DNA of 64,000 nucleotides from Zopfochytrium polystomum (lineage: Eukaryota > Chytridiomycota > Chytridiomycetes > Chytridiales > Chytridiaceae): NCBI GenBank assembly GCA_025765615.1, contig JAIVFJ010000115.1, positions 62,001 to 126,000 on the forward strand, read 5' to 3'. This document shows positions 3,089 to 60,170 of the stretch, piece by piece. The first letter of the stretch is position 1. Each line of letters opens with the position of its first letter. The translations under genes and the position numbers were made by a program. The notes under the pieces were generated by a model. That model saw nothing but the letters and a program-made list of their open reading frames with translations, was not told the DNA's origin and did not search any database.

Positions 3089-6000
3089 TTATTTTTGCGC
3101 CGGGGGTTTCTGCACCATCACGACGCCTACGACGATCGCGATCAACAAGATCCACTGGAACGGCGAAAACAATCCCAGCAAGATCCACATCAGCCCCGGC
3201 GCGACGGCGTACAACAGCACCTGCACGACGAGGAACGAGATGACGCTGCCGCCGCTCAGCACGATCGCCAGCTGCACAGGCGTCGCCGTCTCAAACAGCG
3301 TCAGCGGCTCCAGCGGTGGGCCCGCCGGGTTGCCGTGCCGCCCACCAATGAGAGGCGTCAGCGCCGTCAGCATCAGCGATGCAAACGCAAGGACGATCGC
3401 GACGGGGATCGGCCGCTCGCCCGTCGGCGGCGGCTGCGACGGCTGGACCTGCTGCTGCTGCTTCTGCTTCTGCTGCGTCGTCGTCGCTGCCGACCCCGCA
3501 GCGGAAGTCTTGAGCGCGTCGCCGGACAGGACCCGTTCGAGCTTCTGCTTGCCCGCGGCCGTGACACCGCGGTTGGACTTTTCGACGGCGACCGCCTGCT
3601 GATCGCCGTTAACTGAGAACAGGCGCTGCGACGGGGCGGCGGCGGCGGGGTCCAGCCGGCGGCGCCCGCACGCAATCGACACGCGAACGTCGGCGGCTGC
3701 CAGGCACGCATCGAAGCGCGGGTACACGCGAAGCAGTCGGCCGTCGGGCGTTACGCGGACCTCAAACATGTCCCTCCATGCTGGAGCGGCTGCGCCGGTG
3801 CCGACGGCGACGCGCGCGAAGGACAGGTCTACGCCTGCTGGGAAAACCAGGCGGTGCGCGTTGAGCTCGATGGCGCCTGCGTAGCCGGACGCCGCGGGCG
3901 CGCCGATTGCTGGGGTATGGGTTTTGGTGATGCGGTAGTCGAGGAGATAGGCGCCCGTGTCGGCGTCAAAGCGCTCGTCCTCAAGCTCGACCTTCAGACC
4001 TTCGCCCGTGTTTCCAATGACACGGACGTGCATGGGCACGCCACGCACGGCGAGGTACTGCTGGAGCTGCTCGACCACGGTTGCGATTTGGATGTTACGG
4101 ATTTGGCTGAGGGCGGGGGGCAGGTCGGAGCCGTATGCGACGTGGACAATGTGTGTCACAAGGGTTCCGCCTGAGGGGGAAGGCTTGACCATCCAACCGT
4201 TCACGTAAATGTGCGACCTAACAAAGTCGGGGTCGACAGGGATCTTTGGGTCTGTAATCGATGTGTTGATAACATAGTGTGTCAAGTTGGCGCTGTCATA
4301 GATGGAAACGTGAAGTCCAGCATAGTCGCGGGTTCTACAAATGAGAAGGCAGAAAAATTAAGTGGGGCAAGCGGGCGGCCGTTTTAAACTTACTTGTAAG
4401 GCGGAGAGGGCTTGCGCTTCGTTCTGAAAATATACTCATTCGGGTTCATAAATTCAACGACCTGGACACCGTCAAAGCCCTCATCCCAGTACAATCTCGC
4501 ACCGCCGCTTCTGATTGCCGCTACAATGTCCTCTGTCGAAAACTCTGGCGGGAAGACCTTTTCAGCCTTCACAGCCGTTGCGGCGAATCCTTCCACTTCG
4601 ACCGACGACACCGAGAGGCCGCCCTTTGTCTCAGGATGCTTCGTCCACTTCTTGGCCAAGAGGGCCTTGAGATGGCGCAGCGCCTTGACTCCAGTCTCCG
4701 TGTGGCGGTGGGGGACGTAGGTTGGCGGTTTTGGCGCAGCCGTAGTTGGCGACGCCGGACCGGCTTTTGACGGTGGCGTCTTTGGGGGGGCTGACGTCTG
4801 AATGACCGGTAGCTGCGCTAGGCTGTCCCCGGCGTCCACTATAGTGTCTTCGACAACAGAGCCCTTGTAAGTGACTCCTGGCACTGCGGACTTGGAAAAC
4901 GTGGCAACGACAGCAATCTTGTCGATGCCAGCAGGAGCGGACGCAGCATCGATCGACACAGTGATCGCCGTGCCAACGCCAGCAAGCGAGACGGCCGATC
5001 CTACCGCGCGGCGAACGCGTATTGCCTCTGCGACTGCACACTGCACTGCCACCGCCACTCTTCCACCAGGGAACCTCTTCGAAGGGAACAGGTAAGTCAG
5101 AGATCCTCCCAGCGATCCCGCGTTGTTTACAGTGAACCTTGCATTGAAGCTGCCAGACTTGGGGTCGTAGTCCTGCGAGAAGTCCGTAATGTTGAACGAG
5201 GGCTCAAAGTTCGCAACGTGCCGGATTAGGAAAGGGAAAGGGCCTTCGTTGGCGAGATAGTTTCCGACTTCGGCAACGCACATCGGGGTTTGCGACTGAA
5301 CCAACTTCAAAACCGCTATTTTTTAGAAGAGGGAGGCAGCCGTTAGAGTTATATTCAATCCAAGGCAGATTCAAGCTGCACTTACAAGCTGGAACGGATC
5401 CTTTGACGTCAATCAGGACGAAGTACGACACCGCAATCCCACCATCCTTTGGCTCCAAAACCCAAGTTCCTGTTTCCAAATGTGCTCGTACCCGCTTAGG
5501 ATCAGAGGGGTGGCTATGGTCTGGAATAGACGATGCGACAGCGTAAAGTGGCCCATTCAGTCCGTTTTCAAAGTGCACTTTAAGGAGAACAACAAGCTCC
5601 CTCCCAGCCACAGGGAAAGTTCCTTTCTGCAGGGTGTAAACGACATTCTCGTCCAGGTTCAGGGTGTCAAGGATTTTTCCGCCGTCGTAGCGCGCGTCCC
5701 CTATACCGTTGAAGGCAGAAAGGCCTCTACATTCAGAGACATGACCCTAAAATAATTTAAACATCGTAACACTTACAAACGCTTCGGCTCTCGAGATTCT
5801 TCAAGACACTTAACGCCTCAAGCATCGTAAAGCCATTCCAGAACGAGTCGCCACGGATTGCAGCCATAGGGAAACCAGGCACGTCCTTTTGTGTGATCTT
5901 CACGTTTCCGTTCACGCTGTGAGGGATCCAACCTGCGGAATCCAACGGGTAGATCTGCTTCGCAAAGTCGAGAGCTTTTCGACCCAGAGCAGAGTACTGG

Positions 6001-9000
6001 TGTTCAATGTACGGTCTCTTGGCCGGAGCTGCAGGAGCAACAGGAGTTGCCGCTACCGAAGGCAAAGCGGCAGGACGCGGTTGAGGGGCCGTCGCCACTG
6101 GTGTTGAAGGCTCCGTCGTCCTGATAGGAACCTCGCGGGACGTCGGAGTGGGCGCGATAACAGTGACCGGCGCGACCACCTGATTCATTGGCTTGTCGTC
6201 TGCGTCGACGCGAGTGTCTTCGACGGTTCTGCCGTTGTACGTGACGCCAGCTGCTGTCGACCTTCTAAACAAAACGACGACCGAAAACTTGTCCAGGCCC
6301 GCAGGGACCGCTGCGGTGTCCACTGATATCGTGACGGCCGTGCCTTGTCCGACGAGGGGCACAGCGGTGCCTACGACGCGGCGAATACGGATGGCACCGA
6401 TGCCCCCGCTGCTGCTTGCATCCGCTGCTTTCACCGAAACTTCGATATTCCCGCCGGGGAATCGCTTTGGCGGGAACAGGTACGAGATAGACCCGCCCAG
6501 GGTTCCAGGGTTGTGGACGGTGAAGTTGGAGGTGAAGTTCCCAGACTTCGGGTCGTACTCCTCAGAGACTTGAAGGATGTTGAAGGCGGGCTCAAAGGTG
6601 GCTATGTGGCGGATTAGGAGGGGGAAAGCGCCTTCCTTGGTGATGAAGCTTGCGACCTCGGCGATGCACATTGGAGTCTGCGTTTGCACAACCTTGATGA
6701 GGGCTAAATTTGTTTGGTTTCATGAACAGGTTAGATTTGATTGACGTGAGAGCAAAGTTCCAAAGAAAAGGAAAAGGACGCTTTTTGCCAGCAGAAAACT
6801 TACAGGGAGGAACCGTTCCTTTAACATCCACCAAGACAAAGTAAGAAACAGCGATTCCGCCGTTCATCGGCTCCAAAACCCAAGTGCCAGTTTCCAAATG
6901 AGCGCGAACCCGTTTTGGATCCTGGGGATGATTGTAATCCGGCAGAGACGTTGCGACGGCGTACACAGGACCGTTGAAACCATCGTCGTAGTGCACTTTG
7001 ACGAGCGTCACGAGATCTCGGCCAGCGACGGGGAAGACGCCCTTTTGCATGGTGTAACCCACAATCTCATCGAGGTTGAAGATTTCGAGAAGTTTGCCTC
7101 CGTCAAAGCGTCCGTCCCCTGTGTGTTTTATAGAGAATGTTGAGGCTCACTTTTCCTTTCATTTCATTACAGGGGGTGAAAACTTACAAACGTTCCGCCC
7201 TATGAAGCTTTTCAGCACACTCATAGCTTCAGACATGGTGAAGCCGGTCCAGAAGGAATCGCCTCGAATCGCGGCAATAGGGAAGCCTGGCACTTCTTTC
7301 TGCGTGATTGTGACATTACCAATGACACTGTGCGGTGACCAACCGCCAGAGTCGAGCGGATACAACTGTTTGGCATACTCCAGAGCTTTGCGACCCAGTT
7401 CGGAGTACCTGTGCTCAATGTACGGCCGCTGAGCTGGGAGGGTGACCGCGGCCGGGGCTGGTGCTAGGACGGCCAAGGACGATGGCACCGCCGCGACCGG
7501 CGCCGGCGCCGGCGCTGGCGCAATAAGCGAAGGAACCGCTTGAAGCGCGGGCTCCAGTTCCGCCTCAATCGACCTTTGAACACCTCCAGGGAAATCCGGC
7601 GCAGAGTCGCCGGAGGAGAACGCCTCGACCTCCTTCAGGATCGTGCCGAGATCTTCCACGCGCGTGTCCTCGACAATGGCACCGTCGACGACGACGCCCG
7701 CGGCGCCTGGCGCCTTCGAAAACACGGCAACGACAGAGATCTTGTCGACGGCGGCCGAGACGGACTTGGTGTCGACCGACAGCATTATCGCGGTTCCGCT
7801 GCCAACCAGTGGGACAGCTGTGCCGACAACTCGACGAACGCGGATGCCTTCCACCTGCGACGACAAGGTGACATCGATCTTGCCGGCGGGGAACCGCTTT
7901 GAAGGAAGCAAGTACGAGATGCAGCCGCCGAGGGAAGCCGGGTTATTGACCGTGAATCTTGCGACGAAATTTCCCGTTTTTGGGTCGTAATCGTCGGACA
8001 CATCTGAAATGTTCGGTGTTGGTTCGAACCCAGCGATGTGGCGAATGAGAAGCGGTAGTGCTCCATCTTTGGACATGTAGTTTGCGACCTCTGCGACACA
8101 CATGGGCGTTTGACTTTGAACAGCCTTGATGATTGCTAATTACACGAGTCCCCGGGTGATTGTTAGCTACAAGGATTCTAGAAATCGGATATGGAAACTT
8201 ACAAGCTGGCACAGTTCCTCTTATGTCCACTTGAACAAAGTAGGTAACTTCGATTCCACCATCCTTTGGTACCAAAACCCACGTTGCGGTTTCAAGGTGT
8301 GCACGAACGCGCTTTGGGTCTTGGGGGTGGTTGTAGTCGTCCAAGGAAGTGGCCACCACATAGACGGATCCATCAAGGCCGTCTTCGTAGTGCACCTTAA
8401 CGAGCGTCAGCAGTTCACGCCCCGCAACGGGAAATGTGCCCTTTTGCATCGTGTAACCGACGCTCTCATCAAGGTTGAAGACTTCAACAATCTTTCCTCC
8501 ATCGAAGCGGGCGTCCCCTGATGAACGAAAGAAGAGCAGATAGGAAGGGAGCGTCAATACTTCATCGCGGAAAAGACCACCGTGTCGTCACTCACAGACG
8601 CTGCGAGCATCCAAGCTCCTCAAAACACTCAACGCCTCAGACATGGTAAAGCCTGTCCAAAACGAGTCGCCGCGAATAGCGGCGATGGGCGCACCAGGAA
8701 TCTCCTTCTGCGTGATTTTGACGTTGCCAACAACGCTGTGTGGAGTCCATCCCGCAGCATCCAGCGGGTACAAACTTTTGGCGTACTCGAGGGCTCGGCG
8801 ACCGATCGCAGAGTACCGGTGCTCACGCACCGGGCGCTTCAGGCTCGGGGAGGTGGGAGACATCGGTTCCATCGTGAGGGCCGTTGAAGTGATTGTCGGC
8901 GGGGCGATGGGCGCCACCGCGGGGGCAGGGGCTGCCGGAGCGACATGCTCGGTTGCTGCAACGGAGGCCGGCACTGCCACGCTAACGGACCGCTGCGAGT

Positions 9001-24103: not shown

Positions 24104-24173
<70 letters not shown>
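24104..24173. repeat. (CT)n microsatellite upstream of micro-exon gene copy 1
   Basis: About 35 uninterrupted CT units ending some 80 bp before the ATG at 24257. The equivalent run in the right-arm copy (about 54520-54690) is longer and interrupted. The third family member has GA at 60137-60170, so a polypurine/polypyrimidine tract is a shared promoter feature. Confidence 0.95.
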
Positions 24174-24176
<3 letters not shown>

Positions 24177-24256
24177 CTCTCTTCTTCCTTGAAAAATAAA
24201 TACTTTTCCATAAAACAACGGGAGATCAGACCAGCCCACACCCGCCAACTCCCAAC

Positions 24257-26718
24257 ATGGTCCTCTCCAAGTCCATCCTTGTTCTCGCATTGCTTCTTCT
24301 CTCTGCCACAACCGCCATCGGTGAGGACCCTCTTCTCACTTCTTGCCTTTGCTTTAAGGAGATCCATCTGTCCAATCGTCCCTCACGTCCCTCACCGCTT
24401 CTGTCCAGCCGGCAATACTGGAAGCTCGTCAAAGCCGCCTCGTGAGTTCCCCTTCCGCTTTATGGACCACCCAACTGCAACTGAGTACAATCGTCCCTTT
24501 CTTCGTAGGCCCAGGCGGCAGTTCTGCAAGCTCGTCGAAGCCGCCTGGTGAGTTCTCCCGCAAGCCCTCGCTTCCGCTTGATGGACCGCCCACCTGACCG
24601 AGAGACAAATATACAATCTTTTCCTCCCCTATTTTGTCCAGTCGGCAGTTCTGCAAGCTCGTCGAAGCAGCCTCGTGAGTATCGTTCGATTCAGATCTTC
24701 ATTTTTCTGTTTCAAAGGAATGTGTGGCTCGGTTTAAAACGGTACCGGTTTCGCTGCCTGTGATTCCCCTGCCTCTCGTCCCCGCATCTCCCCGGAACGA
24801 TTTGCAGCGAAACGCAGCAGCAGCATGCAACCAAGCACTAGTCGAACTAGCAGCTGTGAGTGGTCGAGGGGCTGTTGTTGCGTTAGGCGCAAAGCTTTCT
24901 TCATCATTTCGATGCTTACCAAGATCTGATTTACCGTTTTGACGGTTGTGTTCTCCAGTTGGTAAAGGTAAGAATTCCTTCTCTTCGCGTGAAAAGCAGC
25001 TCCGTTAACCACCAACTGCATTTTCAATCAAAAAATAAAAGTCCTCGAACGTGCCAAGTCCAGTGAGTGCAAGAACAAAACAGGAAACGTCTTGACGTGC
25101 CAGCTTATGAATTACCCAACGTTCTGCGACGAAAGGTCTTTCCGGCGCAGGGTCCGGCGGCCAATCTTGTGAGCTTCAATCGCAACGAGTTCGTTTATTC
25201 TCCGGCCACTCACCCTGCACTCTCCAAAATGAAATTTTTTTCGTTGATCTCATCCAACGGTTCGATCAGCCAAGCCCATGAGTAAGCCGTTCACTTCCTT
25301 TCGTTCTTCACACCTGTGAATTAGCGGGCGAACCGACCCTCCATTCCATTCTCAAATCCATCTACTCTTCTTAGAACTCGATTATTCCCAGGCTGGGACC
25401 GACAAATTAGGTTTGGTTTCCCCCCCTCTTGGACCTTTGCTCCCGCCGTTTCAACAAATATCATCCTCGTCGAAAAAAACCACAGCTTCGATGCACAAGA
25501 ATCGTCGTGTGAGCCAGGGTCTAGGTCCAGTCGGCGATTCGGCAAGCTCGTCGAAGCCGCCTCGTGAGTCTCTACCTCCGACCTAGATCCCTTTTTTTTG
25601 CTTCCACGGGTTTGCTTGGCTCTCTTTTAAACTCTGCCGATTTCGCTGCTTCGCCTCCATTGCTTCCTCCGCCTCCCTTCTCCCCGTTTCCCCGGTAACG
25701 ATTTGAAGCAAGCCGCAGCAGCAGTATGCCTGCAAGCACTGGTCAGACTGGGAAACGTGAGTTGGTAGAGTGGGGCTGTTGATGTGGTCAACATCATTTC
25801 AAAGGTGACCAAGAGTTGATTTGCCGTTGAACGACGGTGTTCTCCAGTTCCTAAACGTAAGAATCCCTCCTCGTCGTGCAAAAAGTAGTTCTGTTAACCA
25901 TTGATGGTATTTGAAACAAAAAAAAAAAGCGCCCGGCCGTTCCCAGTCCAGTGAGTACAAGACAAAAGAAGGAAGAGCTTTGAATGTGCCAGCTAAAGTT
26001 TAATCCATTCTGTACCTAAAGGCCTCTCCGGTGCAGCGTCTAGGGGCCAATCTTGTGAGTTTCAATGGCACCCACATTTTTATTTTCTTTCTCCGGCCAC
26101 TAACCCCAAAACAAATGCTTTTTTATTGATCTCATCCGCCGGTTCCATCAGCCAAGCCCATGAGTAAGTCATTCACTTTTCATTCGCTCATAACACCCGT
26201 GATTTCGTATTGGTCGCTCCATTTGATTTATGATTCCACCTCCTTTCCTTAGAAATCGATTATTCCGAAACCGGGAGCGGCAGATTAGGTTTGTTTTCCC
26301 CATGATCCTTTTTTCTCGCGTTTTCATGCCTCGACGATGAAAATCACAGCGTCCATGCACAAGAATCGACGAGTGAGCGAGGGTTTAGGTCTGTGCCATG
26401 TGGAATTCGTCCTCTATTTTCCGGTCAAATGCGATGGGGTAAAACTAATGGGAATTCCTTTTTTGGTCGCCTCTTTTGGCAGGCCCGGTAAAGTCAGTCC
26501 CGAACAACGATCCTCCAATCAAGTTGCGCCGGCGCCGGTGATTCCGTGGCGCTCTGGAGCGTCCTGGGAGTTTTTTGTAGCGGAAACAGTGCGTGAATAC
26601 AGACAAATGGTGTGCTACGGAAAACGATACCGAAACATACTCCTTCCTTTTCGACAGGCTTCTCAGGTGTCCTACGACCTGTGTCCCGGCAGATGTCTGT
26701 TGTTGCGGTTTCGGATGA
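24257..26718 (+). CDS. Micro-exon gene, copy 1 (secreted repeat protein)
   Basis: Predicted secreted protein of 227 aa from 20 exons: 24257-24320, 24409-24441, 24515-24547, 24642-24674, 24808-24855, 24959-24967, 25042-25062, 25151-25168, 25270-25281, 25375-25410, 25486-25563, 25709-25756, 25848-25856, 25930-25950, 26037-26054, 26152-26163, 26253-26288, 26350-26388, 26483-26537, 26658-26718. Exon 1 encodes a signal peptide (MVLSKSILVLALLLLSATTA). Exons 2-18 are 9-78 bp, each 3n long with phase 1 at both ends. Three 33-bp exons encode GSSASSSKPP-like peptides. The size series 48-9-21-18-12-36-(39) occurs twice, with matching peptides (FGK/LPK, SKPM/SKPM, KLDYS/KIDYS, ASMHKNRR). Introns are 61-145 bp. 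Terminal exon is less sure: an alternative acceptor gives 26693-26804 in the same phase. Exon sizes recur in two other genes here. Function unknown. Confidence 0.85.
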
Positions 26719-27469
26719 TGAGGGCCGTATTCAGGCTGGTCCGCGTCATCCGGCATTCTTTGCGGGCTGTTGCAAGCGTCAAGTGGCTTCCTGAGCAACT
26801 CTAAACAGCAAGGACGTGCCGGAAACCGCGGACAGTGGTGATGCGGAGCAGCGCTCCCAACGAGATGTACCACAGCGAGGCCCGCGGAGGCTTGTGGAGG
26901 AGGGGGAGGATGCGACGGCAGAGGAGATGACGAACGCGGACGGATCCAGGGAGGGCGTCGCGGAAGGGGTTATTGAGGATTCACTCCCTGACTTTTCCCA
27001 CATGTGCATGTGCGCGTTTGGCGCGCGAAAGCATCGTCAATACGGACGGAGACAACGAGCAAAAAAGAATAGGTGCCACCCAAGCACGAAAACGATCAAA
27101 AAAAGAAAAAAAAGGAAGTTTTTGCTGCAGGCTGTCTTTGTTCGGCACAGCCACCGTAGCGGCCCATCCGCCACCCCCGAGAACACTGCGGCTGCGCGCA
27201 TCAAAGACAGCCGTCCGCTGCATAAGAGAGGGCAGGAACAGAGAGAGTGAGAGAGAGAGAGAGAGACAGCGAGATGGAGGGGTGGCTTTCCACCTCCACG
27301 CGTAGTCAGTGACAAGGCCACCATGGTTGCCGCCCAAGCAGCCCGACCCTTGGTTCGCACTGCTTGCTATAAAAGCCGCGCGACAGCGAACATCGTCCCC
27401 ACACACAACAACCCCAGCAAAAGCGAAGAAAACAGAACCAACCCAACCGCAAAACGAAAAAAAAAAAAG
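26719..27469. other. Region between micro-exon gene and small secreted gene (left arm)
   Basis: Presumed 3' UTR of the micro-exon gene and promoter of the next gene. Conserved, with indels, in the right arm at 51111-52001. An open frame on the plus strand (about 26816-27100) is only partly kept between arms, so I do not call it a gene. A short GA run lies at about 27244-27265. Confidence 0.5.
27368..27375 (+). promoter_or_regulatory. TATA box of small secreted protein gene
   Basis: TATAAAAG, 95 bp before the ATG at 27470. Conserved at the same place in the right-arm copy (51203-51210, minus strand). Confidence 0.7.
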
Positions 27470-28099
27470 ATGTTTTTCTCGACCACCTCCGTCGTCGCCG
27501 CCGCCGCCTTCGCAGCCCTCGCCTCTCTCGGCCTGTCCGCAACCCACGCCGCCGCGTCGCCGGCACCCGGCTGGGTATACATAAATGACGACGCGCCCCT
27601 CCCCCACGGCCTCACCAACAGTGGGCCTTCGGCGCCGGCCTGCAAGCCGCAAGGCTCCAACGCGGACTACGCGGTCCCCACCGACATCAACGGCAAGCCG
27701 CTCATCTTCAGCTTCGAGGAAGCCAAGACGTACTGCAGCATGAACACCTTCTACAATCTCGCAAAGGAGACGTACGCGAACCAGCCCGATTTCGAGAAGC
27801 TGCTGGCGCAGTGCACTCCCTCCAAGAAGGCCTGGTGAGACGCGTCGCCCGCCCTCCCTCTCTTCGTCTAGCATTTCTCGTGCTCAAAAAAAACTAATCG
27901 CTTTCAACAACATACGCTCTCTTCACGGATCGCTCATTATTTCAGGATCGCGGCGTGGAACACGGACACCTACCAGGGCTACCCTCTCTTCACAATGGCC
28001 AGGACGGACGGCGACGTCAACAGCAAGTCGGGCGTCTACATCGACATTACCAACACGGAACGCATGCCCGCCATCTGCGGCACCAGCTCCAAGGCCTAA
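27470..28099 (+). CDS. Small secreted protein, left-arm copy
   Basis: A 172-aa protein from two exons (27470-27834, 27946-28099; intron phase 2). The start follows an A-rich leader; an upstream in-frame ATG at 27323 lies before the TATA box and is rejected. An N-terminal signal peptide (MFFSTTSVVAAAAFAALASL) is followed by a Pro-rich stretch, then FEEAKTYCSM, LAKETY, AWIAAWNTDTYQGYP and MPAICG. The order Cys-LA-WI-DTY-G-PAIC loosely recalls a C-type-lectin-like fold, but it is short and lacks a clear WND calcium motif, so this is only a suggestion. It lies 0.7 kb downstream of a micro-exon gene on the same strand, an arrangement kept in both arms. Confidence 0.85.
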
Positions 28100-28900
28100 A
28101 AATCAATATTTCTTCGCGTATACGCGAAGGGTTGTGGGGGAGGGGGGTTCTACACCAATCCCCTTTCCGTTATCATTCATTTTTGTTCCTTCGTCAACTG
28201 CTTCAACAGTTCTTATTATTTTGCCAAACGTCTGAACTCGTGGCTTGGCTACAGTTGTCAAATCGGACTTCGCACCTATTTCATTTGAACTTTGAAAATA
28301 TACTATGCCTTCCAACCAACGGCTCCAACTCCGGTCAGAACTCAAACTCCACGGGAGTGCTTTTTGAGAAGCCTTCGCGAACCAAACTGGTTACTGGGCA
28401 ACAGCACATTTCTGGCTTCTCTTTCCATTCTCTTCAGAATCTGTTCAGTACCGTACCTCTTGCTTTTCTTTACTTTTCGCCAGGATTTTTTATTTTGCAA
28501 TCGGTTTCACGATGGTCATCTGGCTGGAACTGCTCTGCGGCCGAACATTTGATGAGCGCAAATAAAGGGGGAAATCTGCGGTTGACGCTTTATTTTTTTT
28601 TTTTTCGGAAGAAAGTTTTTGCTTGGCAGAAGCCCAATACGGCCATTTTCGTCTAAAATTTGATTATTTCTAAGTACAGAATCCGCCCGACGACGAGAGC
28701 GTTTGAGAGATTGGAGCCACACAAAAGAACTCATCTGTTCACAGTGACGCGCGTTTCCCTCTGTACGTCATAGGTGTGATAGGGTGCCGTGTTTCTCGCC
28801 TAAAATAACGATAAAAATCCCACACTCCCATCCACAAGGTCACGCCATCAAATCCGGCACCAACCCACCAACCAACCAACCCCCTCTCCTTCTCCGGCCA
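28100..28900. other. Non-coding end of left arm (orphan GMC promoter copy)
   Basis: Homologous to 49711-50483, which in the right arm lies between the small secreted gene and the GMC oxidoreductase ATG (49678). The homology stops about 33 bp short of where a GMC start codon would be, and no GMC coding sequence follows here. Confidence 0.75.
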
Positions 28901-29665: not shown

Positions 29666-30330
29666 GGGCTGCAAAGTCCAACATGTCCAGCTAATAACCC
29701 CTCACTTTTGGAATGACTAAGGACTGAACCACTTCTGTGGGAGAAGTGCAAAGTCCAGATGCCCGGCTACCATGATGTAATGCCTCATATGAGTGGTATG
29801 AGAAGACAGGGCTTTTCTTTCTCTTTCTGTTGATGATTTTTACTTGTTTTTCCAATTAGTATTTTCCTTTGTTTTGGCTCTTTTTCTTGTTTTATCTTTT
29901 ATTTAGTTGTTTGTTTACTGTCTCTCTTTGAGTGTCTTCTTGTCTGCACCAATCATTTCTTGCCAGTTCCTCCACCCCCCCTCCACTCTGCTCTGGTGGC
30001 TGTCTGCCAAGAAATGGCCCCATGATTCTCTGAGCTGTCTCTTTTTGTTGATGGCTCAGCCCCATTTGGTGAATCACCCACCCCTTCTGTTCTTTACTGT
30101 TTTATTTATTGTTTTGCTGTTTTGCATGTGTTTTCCCTCCTTTTTCCTCTCCTCCCTGTGATTCCAACCCTCTCCTATTTAAACTGCTGCCCCCCCTTCT
30201 TGTTGACTGTGAGAACTGTACCTGAAGTCCCTTGCCTGCCCTTTCCTTCCTGACTGTATGTAGAGCTGGGGGTGGCAGTCCCCTGGTGTGTGACAGGAGG
30301 TTGAAGTCCTCTTGGCCATCATGGCAGTGT

Positions 30331-30352
30331 GCTGGGTTCAATCCCCAGTGCA
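30331..30352 (+). repeat. B-box-like tRNA T-arm motif
   Basis: GCTGGGTTCAATCCCCAGTG forms a perfect 5-bp T-arm stem around GGTTCAATCC. No matching acceptor or anticodon stem is found around it. Probably a second tRNA-derived repeat fragment in the same island. Confidence 0.4.
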
Positions 30353-32792
30353 CCTCACCATTCTGCATGCTGCTTAGGTTGGACTGGGTAGGAGTCACTT
30401 GGTGATGGAAGGATAGAGGGTAAATCTGTGGTGGTGCCTCTAGGTTCCTGTCAATACATCTAGTCAAATCCAGGTCTCTCAAGGTGATATGAATGAGCTG
30501 GCTGGTCAGGTACTGCTGCAGAAATGGTCTCTCAGGTATGCCCCCATCTCCCTGTGTGTTGGCTCCTGTGGCCTCTGGTGGGTCTGGTCTTCACTGGGTT
30601 CAGACCCTCTTTCTCTCAGATTAATGCCTGTGATGTCTTGGTGTCACACTTGTGTGTGGGAGTGGGTTTTAACCTTCCTTGCTTCTAAGATAGGGGATTC
30701 CTCTGGCCTGGTGAGGCAGATGTCTGTGTCCTAGTAGGATGAAGCAAGAAGAGTCCCACTGTCTCCCACCCTGTGTGCCCCCTCCTTGGATTGAGTTGGA
30801 ACCTCTCTTGGGAGTGAGACAAGATGTGTCTGGTTCTGTTAAGTGGAAAACAGTTCTGGTTTGATCCAACAGGCATCTCTGCACACTAACTGTTCCTTGT
30901 GTTTGCCCTTTGTGTCCAACCCCCTCCAACTTAGGGCTTGTCTTTGGCAGAGAGGGAGCTGGTGCTCCAAGGTGGTGGCTCCAACAGGTTGGGACCTGGC
31001 CACTTTCCTCCCCACTCTCCTGCCTTCCCCCTTGGCCTCTGCCTTGGGAAGGAGCTGGCACAGATTGGTTGGTGCTGCCTTAGGCGCCCCCTTTGTTGCC
31101 CTAAGTCTCATTCCTTACCGAGTGATTCGGTCCCTTTGGCTTTGCCATTGGGGTTTCTCTGTGTCTCGGACCAGAGGCATTTTGCACTTTCTTTTGTGAT
31201 TGTGCCACCTTTGTCACACTTTTCTTATGTTTCCCTTTTAGATGTGTGATAACTGCTCTTTTTTGTGTTTAAAGAGTTTCTTTTGTGTTTGATGATGGGC
31301 TTTAGTAGACTCCAAATACATTTTCCTGTCTGGTGACCCCTAGACACCTTCTTTTGCCCCTTTTCATTAGATAGGATTGGTATTTAGGCCATTGCTCTAT
31401 TTCCACCTCCAGCCCAGGGTGAGGAGATTTAGAGAGCACAGTCTCACAGCAGCTGTAAGCAGTCTACTCTGAGTGAGTGAAAGGAGTGAGTGACATGGAG
31501 ATGTATGTTTGTGGGTGGTCCAGAGAAAAACTCTGATGAATTATTGATACATAATGATGATATGTGTGCTATAATAGTCGCTAGGCATGCATGACTGGAA
31601 CAGGGTAAAAGCCTCTCCTATGTTATCTGCTTGAGAAGGGGAAGAGGAAATGTGTTTGCACCAGGTTTCTGACCAGCTTCAGTCCCTCTCACTGAGTTCG
31701 ATTGACATTTTGCCGTGCATAAAAGTGACAGACATTGGAGTTGATGCGCACCTTATGTACAACAAATACATTGCTGCCCATCGAGGGACAACGAATCAAT
31801 CAGTCCCACGAAACGCTATATTTGTTGTCGATCACCGTTATTCACTGGTTGGGAACGGTTGATGTACTGTCAGGAGGGACGTTGATTCCAGCTCCAGCGA
31901 TTGCGAGATTGGTCGGGATCATTGGATTATTGGTTGCGAATGTTGCCTCATTCTTGTTGTGTGTGATTGCAATCAAATGAACGAAGGGTAGATTGCCTTG
32001 TATGTGGCGGCTACTTAAAGAAAGGCACGAATCATCTCAGCGGCATAAAGATAACGTGGAAAGAGCAGGTCCGTCGGTAGTTACTGTGCCGACCTCGTCT
32101 TTTGCAATCTCACAACTCTCACAGAAGCTCGCCGAATTCCCCGTGCGAATCCACAACAAACCATTCATTTGAGCACCAATAATGATCCGAGGTCAGTGTT
32201 CCACAGTGCTGGTCAAACTGAAGGTGGTACAAGTACCGGAGACTGATATATCCTCAGTATGATTCCAGCGACAATTCTGGGTTCTCATTGCAACAGGGAA
32301 TGGTATCTCCAACGCGGGGATTGGTTGAGCAACTTTGGTATTTTATGGCCTGTTGGAGTATACGCACATTGGTAGTACTGTATTCAAGATACGCTGACCC
32401 ATTTGTACTCCTTTGCAGGTATTTGAGCACTGTACAAGTGCTTGGTAAGGTTATTGAGGTTTTGATCCACAGGCTGGACATCCCATCATTGTGCTCTACT
32501 CTGGCAATTTGATAGGAGTTAATTCCGAGCCATGATCACTTCTTTGCTCACATATTCCATGGAATTTTGGCCACATCAGCGTGCTGCAACAGGGTGCCAT
32601 CATTGTGTTGATCAAGACACCAACGCCGCCTCCCGTAACCAAACCCACCCCACCACAGCAGCAGCGGGGCCCAGTTAAACAAAAGTACATAGGAAATCAG
32701 CAACTTCAGTATTATCAGGAAAGAAATCATCCACCATTCACCAAAGAGAATAAAAAAAAAGTGTGTAGAAATAGCAGAAGGGATATGCCAGT

Positions 32793-52001: not shown

Positions 52002-54438
52002 TCATCCGAAACCGCAACAACAGACAGCTGCTGGGACACAGATTGTAAGAGACTCAAGAAGCCTGCCGAAAAAAAGGAGGTTTTGGGATCAATTTCCGTT
52101 GCACACCATATGTCTGTATTCACACATCGTTTCCGCTACCAAAAACTCCCAGGACGCTCCCGAGGGCCGCGGAATCACCGGCGCCGGCGCAACTTGATTG
52201 GAGGATCGTTGTTCGGGACTGACTTTACCGGGCCTGCCAAACGAGGCGACCAAAAAAGGAATTCCCATTAGTTTTACCCTATCGAATTTGACGGGAAAGA
52301 TAGAGGACGAATTCAACATGGCACAGACCTAAACCCTGGCTCACTCGTCGATTCTTGTGCATGGAAGCTGTGGTTTTCATCGACGAGGCGTTGAAAACGC
52401 GACAAAAAAAGGATCAAGGGGAAAAACAAACCTAATTTGTCGAGCCCGGTTTCGGAATAATTGATTTCTAAGGAAAGTAGGTGGATTCATAAATGAAATG
52501 GAGCCACTAATACGAAATCACTGGTGTGATGAACGAATGGAAGTGAATGACTTACTCATGGGCTTGGCTGATGGAACCGGCGGATGAGATCAATAGAAAA
52601 ACATTTGTTTTGGATATGGTGGCCGGAGAAAGAAAAAAAAGGTGGATTGAAACTCACAAGATTGGCCCCTAGACGCTGCACCGAGGCCTTTAGGTACAGA
52701 ATGGATTAAACTTTAGCTGGCACATTCAAAGCTCTTCTTTCTTTGTTCTTGTACTTACTGGACTGGGAACGACCGGGCGCTTTTTTTTTTGTTTTCAATT
52801 ACCGTCAATGGTTAACAGAACTACATTTTGCACGACGAGGAGGGATTCTTACGTTTAGGAACTGGAGGACACCGTCGTTCAACGGCAAATCAACTCTTGG
52901 TCAGCTATCACATCAACAGCCCCACTCTACCAACTCACGTTTCCCAGTCTGACCAGTGCTTGCAGGCATACTGCTGCTGCGGCTTGCTTCAAATCGTTAC
53001 CGGGGAAACGGGGAGAAGGGAGGCGGAGGAAGCAATGGAGGCGAAGCAGCGAAATCGGCAGAGTTTAAAAGAGAGCCAAGCAAACCCGTGGAAGCAAAAA
53101 AAGGGATCTAGGTCGGAGGTAGAGACTCACGAGGCGGCTTCGACGAGCTTGCCGAATCGCCGACTGGACCTAGACCCTGGCTCACACGACGATTCTTGTG
53201 CATCGAAGCTGTGGTTTTTTTCGACGAGGATGATATTTGTTGAAACGGCGGGAGCAAAGGTCCAAGAGGGGGGGAAACCAAACCTAATTTGTCGGTCCCA
53301 GCCTGGGAATAATCGAGTTCTAAGAAGAGTAGATGGATTTGAGAATGGAATGGAGGGGTCGGTTCGCCCGCTAATTCACAGGTGTGAAGAACGAAAGGAA
53401 GTGAACGGCTTACTCATGGGCTTGGCTGATCGAACCGTTGGATGAGATCAACGAAAAAAATTTCATTTTGGAGAGTGCAGGGTGAGTGGCCGGAGAATAA
53501 ACGAACTCGTTGCGATTGAAGCTCACAAGATTGGCCGCCGGACCCTGCGCCGGAAAGACCTTTCGTCGCAGAACGTTGGGTAATTCATAAGCTGGCACGT
53601 CAAGACGTTTCCTGTTTTGTTCTTGCACTCACTGGACTTGGCACGTTCGAGGACTTTTATTTTTTGATTGAAAATGCAGTTGGTGGTTAACGGAGCTGCT
53701 TTTCACGCGAAGAGAAGGAATTCTTACCTTTACCAACTGGAGAACACAACCGTCAAAACGGTAAATCAGATCTTGGTAAGCATCGAAATGATGAAGAAAG
53801 CTTTGCGCCTAACGCAACAACAGCCCCTCGACCACTCACAGCTGCTAGTTCGACTAGTGCTTGGTTGCATGCTGCTGCTGCGTTTCGCTGCAAATCGTTC
53901 CGGGGAGATGCGGGGACGAGAGGCAGGGGAATCACAGGCAGCGAAACCGGTACCGTTTTAAACCGAGCCACACATTCCTTTGAAACAGAAAAATGAAGAT
54001 CTGAATCGAACGATACTCACGAGGCTGCTTCGACGAGCTTGCAGAACTGCCGACTGGACAAAATAGGGGAGGAAAAGATTGTATATTTGTCTCTCGGTCA
54101 GGTGGGCGGTCCATCAAGCGGAAGCGAGGGCTTGCGGGAGAACTCACCAGGCGGCTTCGACGAGCTTGCAGAACTGCCGCCTGGGCCTACGAAGAAAGGG
54201 ACGATTGTACTCAGTTGCAGTTGGGTGGTCCATAAAGCGGAAGGGGAACTCACGAGGCGGCTTTGACGAGCTTCCAGTATTGCCGGCTGGACAGAAGCGG
54301 TGAGGGACGTGAGGGACGATTGGACAGATGGATCTCCTTAAAGCAAAGGCAAGAAGTGAGAAGAGGGTCCTCACCGATGGCGGTTGTGGCAGAGAGAAGA
54401 AGCAATGCGAGAACAAGGATGGACTTGGAGAGGACCAT
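52002..54438 (-). CDS. Micro-exon gene, copy 2 (secreted repeat protein)
   Basis: 227-aa product, 20 exons on the minus strand: 54438-54375, 54286-54254, 54180-54148, 54053-54021, 53887-53840, 53736-53728, 53653-53633, 53544-53527, 53425-53414, 53319-53284, 53208-53131, 52986-52939, 52861-52853, 52779-52759, 52675-52658, 52567-52556, 52467-52432, 52367-52329, 52233-52179, 52062-52002. Every exon has the same length as in copy 1 (64, 33x3, 48, 9, 21, 18, 12, 36, 78, 48, 9, 21, 18, 12, 36, 39, 55, 61), and the sum, 684 nt, stays in frame. A one-base indel relative to copy 1 near 52295 falls between exons 18 and 19, so it is silent under this model. That supports the intron there over a continuous reading frame. 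Signal peptide identical to copy 1. Terminal-exon choice shares the same uncertainty. Confidence 0.83.
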
Positions 54439-54519: not shown

Positions 54520-54553
54520 GAACGAGAGAGAGAGAGAGAGGGAGAGAGAGAGA

Positions 54554-54605
<52 letters not shown>

Positions 54606-54690
54606 AGATATAGAGAGATAGAGATATAGATAGAGGAAGAGTAGAAATAGAGAGAGAGACCAGATAGAGAGAGAGGAGAGAGAGAGACGG
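54520..54690. repeat. Interrupted (GA)n array upstream of micro-exon gene copy 2
   Basis: GA-rich array with AGAGAT and GAA interruptions about 80-250 bp upstream of the ATG at 54438. Longer and less pure than the matching CT run in the left arm (24104-24173). Confidence 0.9.
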
Positions 54691-58234: not shown

Positions 58235-60055
58235 TCAAAACTGATGGTAGAAAAGCTTGACATTTTGGATTAATCTACCCAATATTCGAAAATCTTCACA
58301 AAAGGCCGGACAGGCTGAGTGCAACGGAATAGTCCCCGAGACGGACGGAGTGCACGTGGATTGCGTCACCTGGAGACGACTAGTCCCAAGCGGCACACTT
58401 TGATCGATGGATCGAGGGAGCAATCCATGAAAGAAGGATATAAAAAAGGATATTCAGTTATGCAATGAACCTCGCCACATCTGTATTTCTGTGAATGTTT
58501 CAATTTGATTTCGCCGAAAAGAAGTTTCCAAACATCTGCGCCCAAGGCCAGCAGAATCACCGTTCCGGGTTCGACTGCACCGGCCCTGCCAAAACGCAAA
58601 ATGCCTCGTCAGTCCGACCCCAATTCTCCTCGCGAAAACAGTGTGGCGGGAAAACGGATGACGGTCCGTTCTTCCCCGAAATGACTCACGAACCTAGGCC
58701 CTTGCTCTCACGCGTTTTCTTGCGCATTGAGGCTGCAGAAGGCAGAATGGGTTGAGAGATTGAAAGAATGGCGGCAATAAAACGGGGCGGGGGGCTGGTG
58801 AGAGTGGGCTTTCTAACCTAACCGGTCGAAGCCGGATCCCGAAATGTCCAGCTCTGTGGGGAGAAGATGGATAGATCAGAGTCATGTCGGCCCGCGGCTG
58901 GGAGCGCGCGACGTACTGGCGGGCTCGTGCAAGTCCATTTCTGGTTCGCTCTGTGGAAAATATTTCACCGGGCCTAAACGAGCGAGAGGGTTCCATTAGC
59001 CCGCCGGATGACCGTCGACGAAAAGTAAAAGATGCCTCCATCTTCCTACTCCCCACCCAAAAAAATTGCTGAACAGACCTAGACCCAGTTTCTCCCGTCG
59101 ATTCTTGTGCATGGAAGCTGCCGTATTTTTTGGGGGGGGAGGGGCCGTTAAACGGCACAAAGAAAATAGAAAGGTGGTGTTCAACTGGCAAGCAAACCTA
59201 GGCGGTCGAAGCCGGATTTAGTAACGTCCAACTCTGCAGGGGGAACGTCGATCAGAACCAGGAGCCGGAGGTGACAAAATAAACATAGTCGAAAGAGCCT
59301 GAAGAGGCACTGACTACTTACTCATTGCCCTGGCTGGCGAAAGTCAGTTGGCGTGGAACATTCCGGGGGAAATTAAGATTTTACGAGAAATAAGGTGCAA
59401 CAGTTTCGACGTGTGACTGGAACTCACTGCCGCTGCTTGGCAGTCTGTTGGCAATACCTTCAGACACACAACGTTGAAAGGGATGATTATTGACATTATT
59501 GGGCTTGTTATAACAAGCTAAACTTTGGTTTCCACTCACTGGATTTGGCGCTGCTCAAGGCTTATTTTGATTGGTTGCCATCGTTGGTCAACAGATGATC
59601 AATTGGTGATACACCACATGATAAGTTGGTTCATACCTTTCCCAACTGTCGGATGGCATCAGCGCAAACAATGAAAGTGTGGGTTGGCTTGAATTATTGC
59701 ACTTGACAAGCCGAAAAATCCCACTCCGCCTCCTCCTTCAACTCACTAGAACTCTTAGACCAACCAGTGCCAAGGGCTGCGTATGGTTAAAACCAGCAAA
59801 ATGCGTGAGAATTTGGAGTAGGGGCCGCACGGAGAATCCGCTCTGAAACCAAGGCCTGATTCGATAGACTCTACGTACAAGGCCTCTTCGACGAGCTTGG
59901 AACATTTCCGGCTGCATTTACGGGTTCGGGGAGAGATCGTCAAAAGTGATGGAAGGTGTCATGGCTTTGTGAATGAGAGACTCACCGGTGGCGGTTGTAG
60001 CTAAGAGCAGGAGCGTTCCGAGAAGGAGCCACAGAACCAACTTGGTGAGGATCAT
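58235..60055 (-). CDS. Micro-exon gene 3 (diverged family member)
   Basis: About 186 aa from 14 predicted exons: 60055-59986, 59911-59879, 59776-59747, 59645-59637, 59560-59540, 59457-59428, 59333-59322, 59233-59198, 59117-59079, 58853-58818, 58732-58694, 58585-58561, 58488-58471, 58397-58235 (561 nt). Exon 1 is a signal peptide (MILTKLVLWLLLGTLLLLA) ending in phase 1 like copies 1 and 2. The exon sizes 33, 9, 21, 12, 36 and 39 recur, with related peptides: GNVPSSSKRP, IGK, ALSSAKS, TRAM, KLDVTKSGFDRL, ASMHKNRREKLGL. The 36-39 pair is present twice. The 25-bp exon matches copy 1's 55-bp exon (both begin GPVxS and end at CG|GTGATT). The last two exons are the least certain, and the 225-bp gap after 59079 may hide more. 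No homology outside exons is evident at this depth, so exon conservation here is informative. Confidence 0.72.

Positions 60056-60136: not shown

Positions 60137-60170
<34 letters not shown>
60137..60170. repeat. (GA)n microsatellite upstream of micro-exon gene 3
   Basis: About 17 GA units, followed by a GT run near 60191-60206. Occupies the same promoter position as the CT/GA arrays of copies 1 and 2. Confidence 0.95.

Follow-up and report, generated by a model that had tools for sequence, protein, structure and literature searches.

Micro-exon genes of the chytrid Zopfochytrium polystomum: a three-gene family predicted to encode secreted modular proteins and probably enlarged by duplication of exon-intron units

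Introduction

Micro-exon genes (MEGs) of schistosomes contain very small symmetric exons and can produce protein variants by alternative splicing; in the available text of PMC4350168, they appear to be restricted to platyhelminths. In excerpts of PMC4671649, MEG micro-exons of less than 36 bp are located between longer flanking exons, the signal peptide is mostly encoded by the 5' exon, and 26 of the 33 internal exons of MEG-26 to 32 are symmetric. Exon lengths of 6-81 bp and intron lengths of 0.1-5 kb are given for MEGs in the accessible part of PMC10526429. The bicycle genes of aphids, as presented in portions of PMC9168663, have about 17 exons, which are mostly tiny and nearly all of which, when internal, are in phase 2; they form large families and encode putative secreted effectors with CYC motifs. 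Among fungi, the SP7-like proteins of arbuscular mycorrhizal species are described, in the section of PMC11333574 that was available, as encoded by genes in which a single conserved intron precedes the first repeat. No fungal micro-exon gene of the kind reported below was found in searches of one open-access library, including the available text of PMC7385547, in agreement with an earlier note on the DNA studied here, which knew of no described fungal counterpart.

The DNA analysed in this work, hereafter the window, is a 64,000-nucleotide stretch of Z. polystomum contig JAIVFJ010000115.1 (positions 62,001 to 126,000, forward strand). Z. polystomum is a saprobe of the order Chytridiales (Chytridiomycota). 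The window contains three related predicted genes, designated A, B and C. The earlier note dealt with gene A alone and saw in it, in a fungus-like genome, an architecture like that of schistosome MEGs, namely a signal-peptide exon followed by a series of tiny exons, all symmetric and of phase 1; this description stands for a coding gene of a fungus, and copies B and C are added to it here.

Like schistosome MEGs, as far as those are covered in the sources available, the chytrid genes have many tiny, mostly symmetric exons behind a 5' exon encoding a signal peptide, and both are fast-evolving families with small secreted products (predicted in our case) that are overlooked by automatic annotation. 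They differ in host, a fungus rather than a flatworm, and in intron length, which is 61-145 nt in gene A, 64-144 nt in gene B and 63-108 nt in gene C, and not 0.1-5 kb. The internal exons are symmetric in 17 of 17 cases in gene A, 17 of 17 in gene B and 11 of 11 in gene C, compared to 26 of 33 in the partial account of MEG-26 to 32. With respect to the criterion of less than 36 bp given in the same excerpts, exons of 36 nt or less contribute 321 of the 657 coding nt of gene A and 236 of the 441 of gene C; exons of 51 nt or less contribute 456 and 314 nt, respectively, and the terminal coding parts of gene A are 64 and 59 nt long. Protein searches revealed no sequence relation to any MEG family. 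We conclude that, on the sequences compared, the chytrid genes resemble MEGs in architecture and not in detectable sequence, and we do not class them as MEGs.

The aphid bicycle genes, to the extent that their partial description allows comparison, are similar to the chytrid genes in the number of exons, most of them tiny and nearly all in one phase, and in their putatively secreted products. Their phase is, however, phase 2, whereas all 17 internal exons of gene A and all 11 of gene C are in phase 1, and in place of CYC motifs the mature parts of all three chytrid proteins contain no cysteine. The SP7-like proteins are also secreted fungal repeat proteins, and an exon-intron structure serves as a mark of their family; in the excerpt available, though, this structure is one conserved intron and not a set of micro-exons, and the fungi belong to another phylum. 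There was no SP7-like protein among the matches of our protein searches.

We consider it highly probable that genes A, B and C constitute a micro-exon family of Z. polystomum that encodes secreted modular proteins and has expanded through the copying of exon-intron units situated between introns of phase 1. At the level of sequence, the gene structure is well supported and we regard the family as real, judging by exon borders kept between copies, an open reading frame, duplications, exon counts of 19, 19 and 13, and selection on the predicted frame.

Results and Discussion

Exon-intron structure of gene A

Gene A occupies positions 24257-26541 on the forward strand and is composed of 19 exons, with 657 coding nt specifying 218 amino acids. 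Exon 1 (24257-24320, 64 nt) encodes a hydrophobic leader, the predicted signal peptide MVLSKSILVLALLLLSATTAI, and ends within the alanine codon preceding GN; inspection of the translation places a likely cleavage site where exons 1 and 2 meet (AIA/GN in gene A; ATA/GN in gene C). Three 33-nt exons follow: exons 2 (24409-24441; counterpart in gene C at 59911-59879) and 3 (24515-24547) encode an SSSKPP module each, and exon 4 (24642-24674) encodes an SSSKQP module. Downstream are exon 5 (24808-24855, 48 nt; 30 nt in gene C), exon 6 (24959-24967, 9 nt), exon 7 (25042-25062, 21 nt), exon 8 (25136-25168, 33 nt), exon 9 (25270-25281, 12 nt) and exon 10 (25375-25410, 36 nt, donor GTTTGG; 36 nt and donor GTTTGC in gene C); exons 6, 7 and 9 are also 9, 21 and 12 nt long in gene C. 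Exon 11 (25486-25563, 78 nt) lies at the joint of an internal duplication, after which second copies of exons 5 to 10 are present as exons 12 (25709-25756, 48 nt), 13 (25848-25856, 9 nt), 14 (25930-25950, 21 nt), 15 (26022-26054, 33 nt), 16 (26152-26163, 12 nt) and 17 (26253-26288, 36 nt, donor GTTTGT). Exon 18 (26350-26388, 39 nt) duplicates the first half of exon 11 and has a GTCTGT donor, as does its 39-nt counterpart in gene C. The terminal exon 19 (26483-26541) is 59 nt long including the TGA stop codon at 26539-26541.

The 64-nt signal-peptide exon and the 17 symmetric phase-1 exons announced in the earlier note are thus present, with GT-AG borders throughout; the 17 internal exons range from 9 to 78 nt, and the junctions it named (24675/24808, 24856/24959 and 24968/25042) all belong to our model. 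Donors of the form GTRAG are found in 15 of the 18 introns of gene A, the exceptions being the three weak donors of exons 10, 17 and 18, in 15 of the 18 introns of gene B, and in 5 of the 12 of gene C. A G at donor position +5 is invariant (30 of 30 introns in genes A and C together, 18 of 18 in gene B). A branch-point-like YTRAY motif 12-60 nt before the 3' end of the intron occurs inconsistently and is absent from several introns.

Three details of the earlier description were revised. For exon 8, an inner CAG would permit a form of 18 nt (25151-25168); since the block copies show three differences over the initial 15 nt of the longer form, all of them synonymous, the 33-nt exon fits better. 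The 78-nt exon combines a 39-nt exon and a 33-nt SSSKPP exon, fused across the 6-nt relic GTCCAG. Finally, the gene had been extended through two last exons to 26718, while we prefer a single terminal exon ending with the TGA at 26539-26541. The alternative 3' end, with a splice 26538/26658 and a stop codon at 26716-26718, leaves the frame open in both A and B; we judge it less likely because genes A and B differ at 9 of 61 sites in the alternative last stretch and at 0 of 58 sites in the exon preceding it.

Comparison with chance

The exon chain was compared with chance using a mechanical search for series of symmetric exons 6-90 nt long that are open in one fixed phase, separated by gaps of 45-250 nt, preceded by AG and followed by GTRAG. 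The longest chains comprised 15 exons in gene A, 15 in gene B and 5 in gene C; the chain found departs from the model of gene A in taking a 39-nt form of the third exon and a 9-nt last exon and in lacking the exons with non-GTRAG donors. In 300 dinucleotide shuffles of the gene A region, the longest chain was 5 (one shuffle), with one shuffle reaching 4 and ten reaching 3, and the region has 17 GTRAG donors, where the shuffles average 3.2 and never exceed 9. In natural sequence, the longest chain was 3 in the 192 of 246 2.5-kb windows that touch none of genes A, B and C, 4 in loci taken from unrelated pattern matches (110 windows, 84,522 bases), 3 in the two flanks of the contig (64 windows), and 4 in six 10-kb samples from six other contigs (60 kb, 192 windows). 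The exon chain of gene A is beyond chance. The chain of 5 in gene C does not exceed the best shuffle, its low score being due to the small number of GTRAG donors (5 of 12), and the case for gene C is its match to gene A.

Internal duplication of gene A

Positions 24636-26391 on the forward strand contain an internal tandem duplication with a unit of about 889 bp (24636-25527 versus 25525-26391, 70.6% identical). All eight exon pairs of the doubled block are equal in length (six whole exons, and two pairs that each take one half of the fused exon), while all seven intron pairs are unequal. When substitutions alone are counted, 181 of 231 exon positions (78.4%) and 466 of 585 ungapped intron positions (79.7%) are alike, so that by this measure the exons of the two blocks resemble each other no better than the introns do. 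The relic GTCCAG (25525-25530) is what is left of an intron; it is read as codons joining the 39-nt and 33-nt exons and supplies part of the sequence GLGPV, which remains as in the other modules. Exons 2-4 are themselves tandem repeat units, visible as direct repeats in 24200-26900.

Many short introns within one gene could also be expected if introner-like elements had split an older gene into tiny pieces. The longer intron-covering direct repeats in 24200-26900 are, however, explained by tandem duplication of the exon 2-4 units and of the 889-bp block, and a search of the 80-Mb genome with the whole region uncovered no dispersed introns, as far as such a search can see. Splitting by introner-like elements has, in our opinion, the slightest chance of all explanations considered, and duplication of exon-intron units is the preferred one.

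Genes B and C

In the genome search just mentioned, conducted at the DNA level, the gene A region matched, besides itself, gene B, a piece of gene C and a single 93-nt stretch on another contig. The latter corresponds to sequence past the stop codon of gene A, and the chain search detected no chain of three or more exons at its locus.

Gene B (52175-54438, reverse strand; 217 amino acids, 19 exons, with all 17 internal ones a multiple of three in length) is an inverted copy of gene A. Both genes are included in an inverted duplication (24104-28895 versus 54595-49711), pieces of which are 94-95% identical. Over 24185-25684 the two genes are near-identical, with one mismatch and some gap columns, while over 26185-26934 they are about 10% different; the 5' half looks like the product of a recent gene conversion, to judge from this pattern of identity. 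In the diverged 3' part, which begins in the intron after exon 12, 11 of 208 exon sites and 60 of 576 intron sites are changed; the sole exon indel is 3 nt, and the introns changed in length by -14, 0, 0, -7, -1, +3 and +1.

The inverted duplication also carries a second putative secreted-protein gene beside A and B. This two-exon gene adjoins gene A at 27470-28099 on the forward strand and encodes 172 amino acids with a signal-peptide-like start; its copy in the other arm is on the reverse strand. A Pfam search with it gave nothing above threshold.

Gene C (58557-60055, reverse strand) is a divergent paralog with 13 exons of 70, 33, 30, 9, 21, 30, 12, 36, 39, 57, 36, 39 and 29 nt, i.e., 441 coding nt for 146 amino acids; its 11 internal exons are all symmetric and in phase 1. 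Exons 2-9 match, in order, exons 2 and 5-11 of gene A. Of these eight pairs, six are equal in length (exon 11 of gene A being represented by its first 39 nt) and in the other two the difference is a multiple of three. GTTTG and GTCTG, the weak donors after the 36-nt and 39-nt exons, are in the same places in both genes. There are no counterparts of exons 3 and 4 of gene A, nor of most of its second block. The 57-nt exon of gene C is followed by another 36-39 pair, whose donors are GTTAG and GTTCG and which on sequence grounds we regard as a duplication of its own. In all three genes the start codon is directly preceded by TC/GA simple repeats, at 24104-24182, 54524-54687 and 60139-60170.

Additional members of the family were sought in the genome with patterns and with tblastn. 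A longer exon-11 pattern with up to three mismatches gave six matches, all in the family, and none in the control. A pattern for exon 11 with up to two mismatches matched at 62 sites, six of which are in A, B and C, while the reversed control matched at 11; one of the 56 other matches was inspected closely and is unrelated, and the rest are taken as chance or repeats. Five of the seven matches to an exon-9 pattern were in the family, and the other two are near-identical copies of something unrelated. With protein C as a query, tblastn returned three matches at gene C, and two further matches at other places were weak (E 0.08 and 0.35). Members that have diverged strongly would escape all of these searches.

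Reading frame and public annotation

The predicted frame contains no stop codons over the internal exons of genes A and C, while the other two frames contain 8 and 5 stops in gene A and 7 and 3 in gene C. In the predicted frame, dN/dS is 0.48 between the blocks of gene A and 0.32 between A and C; for the 36-39 pairs it is 0.15 (second block of A versus second pair of C) and 0.28 (the two pairs of C). In the other frames, the values are 0.90-1.79. The A-C tests used the six common exons of equal length and omitted exon 1, exons 5 and 8, and the terminal part. When the same substitutions were re-placed by permutation, the excess of synonymous changes was clear in the A-C comparison (13 of 31 changed codons, P=0.0056) and weak between the blocks (12 of 37, P=0.071).

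The sole protein-database match listed for the product was an NCBI model of Z. polystomum, DFJ73DRAFT_764065 (100 amino acids, E 0.26), whose first 21 residues are identical to those of gene A and which then runs through intron 1 into another frame. Compared to the structure proposed here, this public model of A or B is truncated, retains intron 1 and is in another frame. That the annotation should be right in the 5' part, i.e., that intron 1 is kept and about 100 amino acids are read in the other frame to an end near 24762, seems to us quite improbable. It is true that intron 1 of gene A contains no stop if kept, and that exons 2-4 alone fit both frames about equally by eye. Yet intron 1 of gene C, if kept, runs into a stop, the other frames have stops in later exons in addition to dN/dS values of 0.90 or more, and the public model ignores the exons after exon 4, though most of them have counterparts in gene C.

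Change within the family is fast, and exons 5-7 differ from their second copies mostly at the amino-acid level, as might be the case in a decaying pseudogene family or in non-coding repeats. None of the three genes has a stop or a frameshift, however, the in-frame comparison of A with C carries a purifying signal, and exon lengths change only by multiples of three. We therefore find decay or a non-coding nature very improbable and treat A, B and C as coding genes.

Predicted product

The predicted product is likely secreted and probably disordered. The mature parts of A, B and C are basic and rich in serine and proline; they contain no cysteine and 17-26% serine, have a pI of 10.5-11.7 and, by charge and hydropathy, fall on the side of the boundary typical of disorder. 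A 28-residue module, K-[LI]-[DN]-x(4)-G-x(2)-[KR]-L-A-S-M-...-GLGPV, occurs twice per gene, with GLGPV following the LASM part in six of six cases in the three genes. We suggest that this module may be the active part, perhaps freed by cleavage at basic pairs.

A Pfam search revealed no family above threshold; the DIM family scored below it, with E 0.013 over the leader of gene C and E 0.26 in the neighbour gene. A PDB search with the product gave no relative, and no homolog outside this genome was found in protein searches or in viral contigs.

Origin and consequences of the uniform exon phase

According to the preferred interpretation, the signal peptide would be encoded by exon 1 alone and followed by modules of 3-26 residues, nearly each on its own phase-1 exon, and the family would have grown as whole exon-intron units were duplicated. 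Introns in phase 1 permit the duplication or loss of any unit while the reading frame stays intact. Duplication of units is directly visible in exons 2-4, in the 889-bp block of gene A and in the 36-39 pair of gene C. RNA would presumably be made and spliced as modelled, mostly into one constitutive form through intron definition, with some exon skipping possible, and the product would be secreted.

The uniform phase can be read in two ways, either as a selected freedom to skip exons or as a trace of unit duplication between phase-1 introns. The former reading would make each gene a MEG-like diversity device, whose exons would be spliced together in many different subsets to yield many secreted variants. 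All 17 internal exons of gene A, and all 17 of gene B, are removable without a change of frame, gene C has nothing corresponding to exons 3 and 4 or to the bulk of the second block, exon 8 has an in-frame inner acceptor, and schistosome MEGs of this architecture do vary in this manner in the available text of PMC4350168. Symmetry, however, is equally expected from duplication of exon units, and since such duplication is visible here and would leave the same phase, symmetry alone does not show combinatorial splicing. Nor do the splice sites and introns point to it: donors in genes A and B are mostly strong (GTRAG in 15 of 18 in each; 5 of 12 in C), which suits constitutive use, and the introns do not exceed 145 nt in A, 144 nt in B and 108 nt in C (minima 61, 64 and 63 nt), compared to up to 5 kb in the partially available MEG descriptions. 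We regard variant production by combinatorial exon use as possible but rather unlikely. Equally doubtful, in our assessment, is the broader proposition that a fungus has independently evolved, outside animals, a micro-exon diversity system with combinatorial phase-1 micro-exons and secreted modular variants. Short introns such as these, of 61-145 nt, suit intron definition and do not specially favour exon skipping. As exons 5-11 of gene A show no visible relation to each other, the uniform phase could also have causes other than duplication.

If these genes are spliced as modelled, micro-exon secreted genes would have three or more separate origins, one each in flatworms, aphids and a chytrid. 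This would point to a general route, in which exon-intron units flanked by introns of one phase are duplicated behind a signal-peptide exon, rather than to parasite immunity alone. Steps of this route appear to be preserved in the three copies, namely internal duplication, an exon fused over a dead intron, and an inverted copy with a near-identical 5' half. Annotation pipelines break such genes, the public model being an example, so they may be overlooked in other fungi.

Other features of the window

ARAGORN called a tRNA-Phe at 30268-30356 on the forward strand; it is absent from the Rfam results at gathering score and is possibly a false call. At about 57700-56900 on the reverse strand, there is a stretch containing stops which, by eye, we take to be a remnant resembling an IS630/Tc1-type transposase. 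A tandem family of related proteins, whose DNA pairs are 65-67% identical, is encoded on the reverse strand at about 4390-8825, and beside it, at 3089-4285, lies a sub-threshold match to a START domain.
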